Shown here: piece after piece, positions 49,792 through 52,518 of the stretch
Numbering within the stretch: the stretch's first letter is position 1
Layout of the letters: each line of letters opens with the position of its first letter
Source: Vulcanimicrobiota bacterium
GTDB lineage: Bacteria; Vulcanimicrobiota; Vulcanimicrobiia; Vulcanimicrobiales; Vulcanimicrobiaceae
DNA: 64,000 bases
Direction: 5' to 3'
NCBI GenBank assembly: GCA_027307235.1
Contig: DAHUXH010000020.1
Span: 62,001 to 126,000 of the forward strand
The notes under the pieces: model-generated
Databases searched by the model: none
What the model was told of the DNA's origin: nothing
Seen by the model: the letters and a program-made list of their open reading frames with translations, nothing else
Program-made: the position numbers and the translations under genes

Positions 49792-49800
49792 GCCGAAGAG

Positions 49801-49840
49801 GAGGCGAAGAGCACTCGATCGCTCGAGTGCTCTTCGCCTC
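49801..49840. terminator. Bidirectional terminator between metalloprotease and glyA
   Basis: Perfect 18-bp arms (49801-49818, 49823-49840) around a TCGC loop, 10 nt after the protease stop and 28 nt after the glyA stop. No long T-run on either side, but the stem strength and convergent position fit a two-way terminator. Confidence 0.8.
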
Positions 49841-49868
49841 CGTCATGACTCCGCTCTACGTCGACCGG

Positions 49869-51697: not shown

Positions 51698-52414
51698 ATG
51701 AAGCTCTCGTGCGCGAGTAGCGCGTTCGATCGGATGCTGGTGGCCGGCGATCTCACGCAGCTCGAATTCATCGAGAGCTGCGCGCGCGAGCTAGCTTGTG
51801 ACGGCGTCGTTCTTGACGTGCGGCACTTTCCGCGAACCGACGACGACTACCTCGCCCAAATCAAGAAGATGGCCGCGGACCTCGGGCTCGACGTGGCGGC
51901 GATCCGCGACGATGAGTTCTTCTTCGCACCCGACGATGCGATGGCCGCGACCGTGCGCCTCGCGCGCCTGACCGGCGCCCCCCTAGTGACATCGCAGCTC
52001 GCGCGGGAAACGGCGCTGCCGTGGTCCGACCAGCTTGCGCGCATCTCCGCCGCGACGGGACTCGCCAAAGCCGAGAACGTGACGCTCGCGCTGAGAAACG
52101 CGCCGCACACCTTCGCCGCGACCACCGCCGACTGCAAACGCGTGCTCAAAGAAAGCGATTCAGCATGGATGCGTTTGGGTCTGGAACCGCACGCATTCGA
52201 CGCCACGAGCGACCCCGCGAGCCTCGCGCCCAACGTGGTGCTCCTGTGGCAAGCCGCCGAATTGCCGATCGCAGACGTCTGCGACCTCTTCCCCACCTTC
52301 CGCGCCCATCTCACCCTCGACGCCCCCGGCACCCTCACCACGCCAACCGCCAAAGCCAACATCCAAGCGCACCGCAATGCCCTAGCCCACCGCACTATCG
52401 GACTCAAGACGTGA
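51698..52414 (+). CDS. TIM-barrel protein (xylose isomerase/AP-endonuclease-2-like)
   Basis: 238 residues, shorter than most members. MKLSCASSAFDRMLVAGDL and FIESCARELACDGVVLDVRH fit the start of the sugar phosphate isomerase/epimerase fold; several metal-ligand positions seem missing (LALRNAPHT where LxxEN is usual), so activity is doubtful. Its stop codon lies in the first arm of a 108-nt palindrome. Confidence 0.7.
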   Translation: MKLSCASSAFDRMLVAGDLTQLEFIESCARELACDGVVLDVRHFPRTDDDYLAQIKKMAADLGLDVAAIRDDEFFFAPDDAMAATVRLARLTGAPLVTSQLARETALPWSDQLARISAATGLAKAENVTLALRNAPHTFAATTADCKRVLKESDSAWMRLGLEPHAFDATSDPASLAPNVVLLWQAAELPIADVCDLFPTFRAHLTLDAPGTLTTPTAKANIQAHRNALAHRTIGLKT

Positions 52415-52518
52415 AGAAGCGCTGATTTCCGTCAGGCCGAGGCGCGAAGAGGCGAAGTGTACTAAGGTACACGAGCCTCTTCGCAACGAAGGCCTGGCGC
52501 AAATCAGCGCTTCTTCAC
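52411..52518. repeat. 108-nt near-perfect palindrome
   Basis: Outer arms of 18 bp pair perfectly (52411-52428 with 52501-52518); then CGTCAGGCC with GGCCTGGCG (one G.U), then GCGAAGAGGC with GCCTCTTCGC, then TGTAC/GTACA around a short tip. Folded, it is a long rod with small bulges. It could be a terminator, a REP/BIME-like or MITE-like repeat, or an RNA structure. It holds the final codon of the TIM-barrel gene. About 240 nt beyond it to the next gene show no coding or known RNA signal. Confidence 0.85.

Follow-up and report, generated by a model that had tools for sequence, protein, structure and literature searches.

A REP-like family of long hairpins at gene 3' ends in the genome of a Vulcanimicrobiota bacterium

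Is a nearly perfect palindrome of 108 nt at the end of a bacterial gene an oversized terminator, or does it belong to a repeat family? In the window (the whole 64,000-nt stretch of DNA analysed here), such a palindrome lies at 52411-52518 on the + strand, which is also the orientation of the element. The sequence-only reading had described it as a near-continuous hairpin with an 18-bp perfect outer stem at the end of a TIM-barrel gene, and our analysis confirmed this hairpin and its coordinates. The arms 52411-52428 and 52501-52518 paired with no mismatch, and pairing up to the 4-nt tip was broken only by one C/C mismatch and two internal loops. The minimum free energy was -83.8 kcal/mol, compared to a mean of -33.9 (sd 3.8) for shuffled sequences (z -13; 0 of 200 shuffles as low).

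Based on the fold, the alignments and covariation, the hairpin was divided into its parts, all on the + strand. The left (5') outer arm of 28 nt (52411-52438), the outer part of which differs among copies, is followed by the 5' side of internal loop A (GAGGC, 52439-52443; AGG is present in 50 of the 50 rows of alignment A3), the 5' side of the covarying 10-bp stem 2 (52444-52453), the 5' side of internal loop B (GAA, 52454-52456) and the 6-bp apical stem GTGTAC/GTACAC with its 4-nt tip (52457-52472). On the way back lie the 3' side of loop B (GA, 52473-52474), the 3' side of stem 2 (52475-52484), the 3' side of loop A (AACGAA, 52485-52490) and the right (3') outer arm (52491-52518), which in other copies is the end most often abutting gene 3' ends. 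The TGA stop of the TIM-barrel-like gene (51698-52414, + strand; Pfam AP_endonuc_2 at 26 bits, below the cut-off of 31.1) is located inside the left arm. On the other side, a candidate 6S RNA gene (RF00013; 52517-52700, - strand; 33.2 bits, below the gathering threshold of 46.4) overlaps the 3' end of the element by 2 nt with its own 3' end and sits between the element and a mandelate-racemase-like gene. The element separates the 3' end of the TIM-barrel gene from that of the candidate 6S RNA gene. Inspection of the flanks showed no T-run on either side.

Employing BLAST, we found 61 matches in the genome from which the window comes (the own genome), reverse-strand and partial copies counted. 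From 38 stretches we obtained 47 copies with a match of at least 70 nt; two copies without a right arm were left out, and the remaining 45 were aligned (A1) and used to build a covariance model (R1). R1 scored at least 90 bits at no fewer than 69 places in the 2.41-Mb genome, a figure that may be a lower bound, with 150 of the 1780 candidates scored. Clearly, the palindrome is not single-copy, which was the condition set to refute the sequence-only reading. It belongs to a family of dispersed hairpins, and the suggestion of a REP-like or MITE-like repeat was right in kind. The element is about 98-110 bp long, and its flanks vary from copy to copy. Some copies occur in pairs or in tandem arrays (three units in L050), and L026, L027 and L030 each have an additional right half-copy that starts at the hairpin tip. 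Scans of stretches with the element gave no Rfam family above its threshold on it; examples of weaker matches are mir-254 (33.7 of 70 bits, in the window) and HPnc0260 (46.1 of 59 bits, in Providencia). Among the listed titles and abstract openings of the literature searched, we found no description of the element.

In A1, 93.3% of the cells in paired columns could pair. Changes on both sides were seen at 26 of 45 pairs (shuffled mean 12.9) and in 182 cells (shuffled mean 59.6), and on each of five covariation measures 0 of 500 shuffles, which disregard the relatedness of the copies, scored as high. As a control, shifting the partners by 1-3 columns lowered pairing to 35-44%. The stems change but remain paired, and the two internal loops are nearly constant; outside GGAAG...CTTCC, the A1 consensus has no conserved letters. 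In several copies (L027, L037, L053, L256, L258 and L273) the whole outer arm has been replaced, yet pairing is kept almost throughout. Because whole arms change in blocks and still pair, this exchange is most likely due to template switching, which fits better than many separate compensating changes; selection on the stem may also contribute. Template switching makes and mends hairpins according to an excerpt of PMC8794818, in which, as in our element, multi-base complementary changes of a stem occur in one step; the hairpins described in that excerpt are in RNA genes, whereas ours is a dispersed repeat.

The non-Watson-Crick cells point to one strand. On the + strand, A3 contained 120 G.T versus 24 A.C, or 54 versus 22 after removal of three fixed wobble pairs (p 0.0003). 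Without the fixed pairs, the ratio was 33 to 10 in the relatives from the Eremiobacterota order and 19 to 11 in the other phyla alone (p 0.2, not significant); in the own copies (A1 minus two fixed pairs) it was 43 to 31. Since G.T exceeds A.C on the + strand, it is this strand, the template for the abutting gene, that appears to fold; the signal is clear in the relatives and weak elsewhere. The excess is antisense to the abutting gene and is the main fact that a simple role at the mRNA 3' end leaves unexplained; explanations by single-stranded DNA or by a + strand RNA therefore stay alive.

We then compared the two ends of the element with respect to neighbouring genes. In the own genome, where genes were called by a simple codon model (so that single cases may be wrong) and clustered copies are not independent, the 3' end of the element lay within 15 nt of a facing stop codon in 44 of 71 copies and the 5' end in 11 of 71. 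The first set gave 27/47 for the 3' end and 7/47 for the 5' end; a check set, fetched afterwards and without part in the first count, gave 17/24 and 4/24. The median distance from the 3' end to the stop was 1 nt (first set; 33 copies with a facing stop within 400 nt), and the facing stop was inside the arm (-11 nt) in 5/47 and 2/24 copies. Of 14 single copies between convergent genes, 13 were within 5 nt at the 3' end, compared to 5.0 expected under uniform placement, and 3 at the 5' end.

For other genomes, we used open frames of at least 100 codons, and some of the loci are orthologous. Thirty-five loci of the same order showed a gene end at the 3' end only in 16 cases, at the 5' end only in 3, at both in 11 and at neither in 5 (p 0.004). 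The corresponding numbers were 6, 1, 2 and 3 (p 0.12) for 12 of the 22 loci of a GTDB set, ten being excluded because they duplicated other loci, were orthologues from Cupriavidus, were truncated or lay in an rRNA operon, and 8, 4, 1 and 13 (p 0.39) for 26 loci of a betaproteobacterial order. The preference for the 3' end can thus be taken as firm for the own genome and its order; outside that order it is no more than suggested. Genes ahead of the element included groEL, groES, nusG, hisA, iscS, cysD and a sulfite-oxidase-like gene (names read from C-termini). One might suppose that the far arm is a copy of the coding end of the gene. This was rejected: over 26 own copies, pairing fell from 0.58 in the 3'UTR to 0.42 at the stop and to 0.26-0.33 past it. 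As the last value is about chance, the palindrome generally does not extend into the gene.

The family extends beyond the own genome. Of the 103 genomes of the order, the own one counted, 69 had R1 matches at E 0.001 or better. Since a model with as many pairs as R1 might also score unrelated long hairpins, 35 loci were read out. The loop-A motif (AGG / RACR[AC]) was detected by script in 34 of them and by eye in L075, which has a duplicated tip; CGNNG was present ahead of the apical stem in 31 of the 35, and the stems differed. Over one genome each of 84,980 species, the exact core pattern occurred in 22 stretches, and 22/22 fold into the same core hairpin. Eight are in records titled Eremiobacterota, one of which (bog_1492, G015/G125) is of the window's own family; three are from Cupriavidus, one from Burkholderiaceae, one from a Burkholderiales MAG and four from Betaproteobacteria MAGs; two are in one Providencia rettgeri genome, and one each in an Arenicella MAG, a Nanoarchaeota MAG and a record titled Rhodospirillales. 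The last (L100) does not count as a further phylum: the same element, letter for letter, is found as L076 in G014, a genome of the own family, and the title is probably wrong. Contigs of MAGs may have been assigned wrongly; neither the Cupriavidus nor the Providencia records carry MAG in their titles. For 11 of the core-pattern genomes, a model of 50 diverse cores gave between 1 and 14 matches per genome; at E 1e-6 or better, it matched 27 of 150 genomes in the order of one Betaproteobacteria MAG, where the weak matches may be other hairpins. Carriage by phages or plasmids was rejected: the exact core pattern was present in 0 stretches of viral_contigs, and the window copy had no BLAST match in plasmids or phages.

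In Providencia, the element is located between tRNA-Ile and tRNA-Ala of the rRNA operon, in antisense orientation. Of 24 spacers from 9 genomes, 23 could be aligned. They comprised 13 distinct sequences, all of which contain the core motif and differ in their arms. In P. rettgeri (L173, L192), the arms of the 16S-23S spacer hairpin differ among the rRNA operons of one genome. With the Providencia element as query, 0 of 5,426 E. coli genomes were covered to 80% or more, and 5,357 of the 5,426 matched the tRNA-Ile end.

Occupied and empty sites were found at two loci. Among 30 Cupriavidus genomes, the element is present between cysD and cysN in 7, a short spacer is found there in 22, and the remaining one yielded no match. 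The near arm contains CCGGACGCA, which is also present in the short spacers of L153 and L154, and similar words are found in 13 of the 22 short spacers. Its inverted partner, TGCGCCGG, is absent from all 22 short spacers; where the element is present, the partner lies on its far side, in some cases with one change. At this one locus, the comparison of spacers supports a near arm that would be host-derived, with an inverted copy of it on the far side. The second site is the 3' side of hisA in another genus of the own family (18 genomes searched, 17 with a match): three loci are occupied (L224, L225 and L226), six are short (L229, L230, L232, L234, L235 and L241), and others are partial or contain a 1.2-kb insert. 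At the short site L241 the last nucleotides of a far arm persist, and this site may have arisen by deletion instead of never having been occupied. In L226 and L227, from two species of this genus, an insert of about 1.2 kb separates hisA from the convergent gene.

Which enzyme could move such an element? The REP-associated transposase that had been proposed as a check was not found: a search of the own genome (one genome, 96.6% complete) for PF01797 (Y1_Tnp/RAYT) gave 0 matches, and a RAYT/Y1 transposase was rejected as the mobiliser. A reverse transcriptase acting in trans had been considered because target-primed copying would explain the fixed 3' end; it was also rejected, with RVT_1 found in 2 of 41 genomes (G009 and G016, carrying 9 and 15 copies of the element) and not in the own genome. 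One partial match to DDE_Tnp_1 (PF01609) was detected there. Many copies read TA|GGAAG...CTTCC|TA. As this TA belongs to the palindrome and to the stop codon as well, a general target-site duplication was not established.

Compared to known systems, the element is closest to REPs. According to PMC3733652, these are interspersed imperfect palindromes, mostly intergenic, which adjoin ORF 3' ends (<20 bp), often supply the stop codon with their ends and form dimers. The element shares with REPs (GTAG/CGTC superfamilies, REPIN/BIME) the dispersed imperfect palindrome, the many intergenic copies near ORF 3' ends, ends that often provide a stop codon, and dimers. It differs from them in length (about 100 bp versus 20-40 bp), in its two near-constant internal loops with changing stems, in the unpaired end tag (GTAG at the ends of 3/45 copies and CGTC at 0/45) and in the missing RAYT. 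The best reading is a new, long, REP-like family that has the habit of REPs but not their length, tag or RAYT.

ERIC, NEMIS, RPE and RIME are palindromic, MITE-like, non-coding repeats of about 100 bp with many, mostly intergenic copies, and by this description the element resembles them. We know of no member of these four families with its core motif. As a MITE, the element would have its arms as terminal inverted repeats, and a duplication would be indistinguishable from palindrome plus stop codon. The integron attC site is a hairpin on the gene-template strand just behind the stop, with RYYYAAC...GTTRRRY boxes at its ends. None of the 45 own copies has these boxes, whichever way it is read, and our element is dispersed behind housekeeping genes, whereas attC sites stand in an array.

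Four other explanations were weighed against these results. That the palindrome is an intrinsic terminator of a single locus, merely oversized, is very unlikely. It is positioned between two 3' ends, and other gene ends in the window also bear long hairpins without a T-run: 9 of 52 have a strong hairpin, and a 10-nt tail with at least five T follows 0 of these 9 (two hairpins counted from both sides, two tails incomplete). But the same core and loops recur at 69 or more places, which already refutes a single-locus feature; the window copy lacks a T-run; and copies lie between cysD and cysN and apparently between groES and groEL (identities by eye), where full termination would be harmful. One of the other hairpins, at 49800-49841, had been taken for a terminator whose arms (49801-49840) the core of the element partly resembles. 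It is a separate structure, a perfect 19-bp stem closed by a loop of 4 nt, and is located 8 nt after the stop codon of a Met-zincin-like gene (DUF4953). No T-run follows it, so it is not a terminator of the classic type; it shares 18 nt at 83% with the element, has no internal loops and no R1 match, and is not a copy of the element. Because none of the nine strong gene-end hairpins has a T-rich tail, the own genome may use hairpins without U-tracts at gene ends. A transposon of the MITE type moved by a DDE transposase (IS5- or IS630-like) is not probable either. At least 7 loci of a betaproteobacterial order hold the hairpin inside larger units with inverted ends of the type TAGGGCCTGTTAAC (ends by eye), and the flanking TA of many own copies would fit; against this, such ends were not seen in the Cupriavidus or Providencia loci, TA is confounded with stop codon and palindrome, and DDE_Tnp_1 has a single, partial match in the own genome.

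The remaining two explanations start from the folded strand. In one, the element is a recombination site of single-stranded DNA (attC-like or IS200/REP-like): the bottom, gene-template strand would fold, and an enzyme that reads both loops would attach the hairpin behind genes. The near-constant, purine-rich loops and the G.T excess on one strand, the fixed side at gene ends, presence and absence at orthologous sites and the half-copies from the tip would all agree with this, but no Y1_Tnp is encoded in the own genome, attC-like R-box pairs are lacking, and without the fixed pairs the G.T excess is small in the own copies and non-significant in other phyla alone; we regard it as unlikely. The other, a small structured + strand RNA antisense to the abutted gene, with the loops as a protein-binding motif, would account for wobble of the G.U type kept on that strand and for GA-rich loops in several phyla. 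It is doubtful indeed, in that the flanks vary from copy to copy and the Providencia copy is antisense inside an rRNA operon, where antisense transcription is presumably improbable.

We favour, with a probability of roughly 60%, a non-autonomous REP-like hairpin family that has been retained behind gene 3' ends as a stop-codon-proximal 3'-end hairpin, its arms kept complementary by template switching. A dispersed element with a conserved core hairpin and two near-constant internal loops would be mobilised by an enzyme acting in trans; its outer arms would vary and be held complementary, most likely by DNA template switching plus selection; and it would become fixed where it is harmless or useful, right behind gene 3' ends and in one preferred orientation. 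In the transcript, a very stable hairpin close to the stop could shield the upstream RNA from 3' exonucleases. The same hairpin may slow terminating ribosomes, as others have reported for REPs of E. coli: those within 15 nt of the stop are said to stall ribosomes or lower translation, according to an earlier study cited in the excerpt of PMC12306157. Several observations count against the REP-like reading, among them the strand of the G.T excess and the lack of a clear target-site duplication. No transposase partner was identified among the families searched in the own genome. The window copy meets the stop of the protein gene with its 5' end, not its 3' end. Some lineages have a single copy at one place (cysD-cysN of Cupriavidus) or, as in Providencia, copies in those rRNA spacers that were read, a pattern closer to that of a fixed functional component than to that of a repeat on the move.

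A broader view is tentative: the hairpins may represent a very widespread, undescribed class, defined by two near-constant non-Watson-Crick internal loops and replaceable stems. An enzyme would recognise the gene-template strand in its folded, single-stranded form and place the hairpin, in one preferred orientation, at gene 3' ends (mRNA stops, tRNA-Ile and 6S) in Eremiobacterota, Proteobacteria and a DPANN archaeon. Because the core is recognisable across phyla and the stems are replaced as whole paired units, the family provides a clean test bed for the spread of palindromic repeats without a dedicated transposase, and for the effect of a hairpin just behind the stop on translation and mRNA life outside E. 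coli. Both the core pattern and the model have the specificity needed for annotation.

In the betaproteobacterial order, units with inverted ends such as AGGGCCTGTTAACC surround the hairpin at L201, L203, L204, L206, L207, L209, L211, L214 and L215. A second, opposite hairpin was detected by the model in five of these nine units (L201, L203, L206, L209 and L215) and by eye in others. The unit of L207 is 269 bp long, and 5 nt lie between its end and the 3' end of a 6S RNA (73.6 bits).
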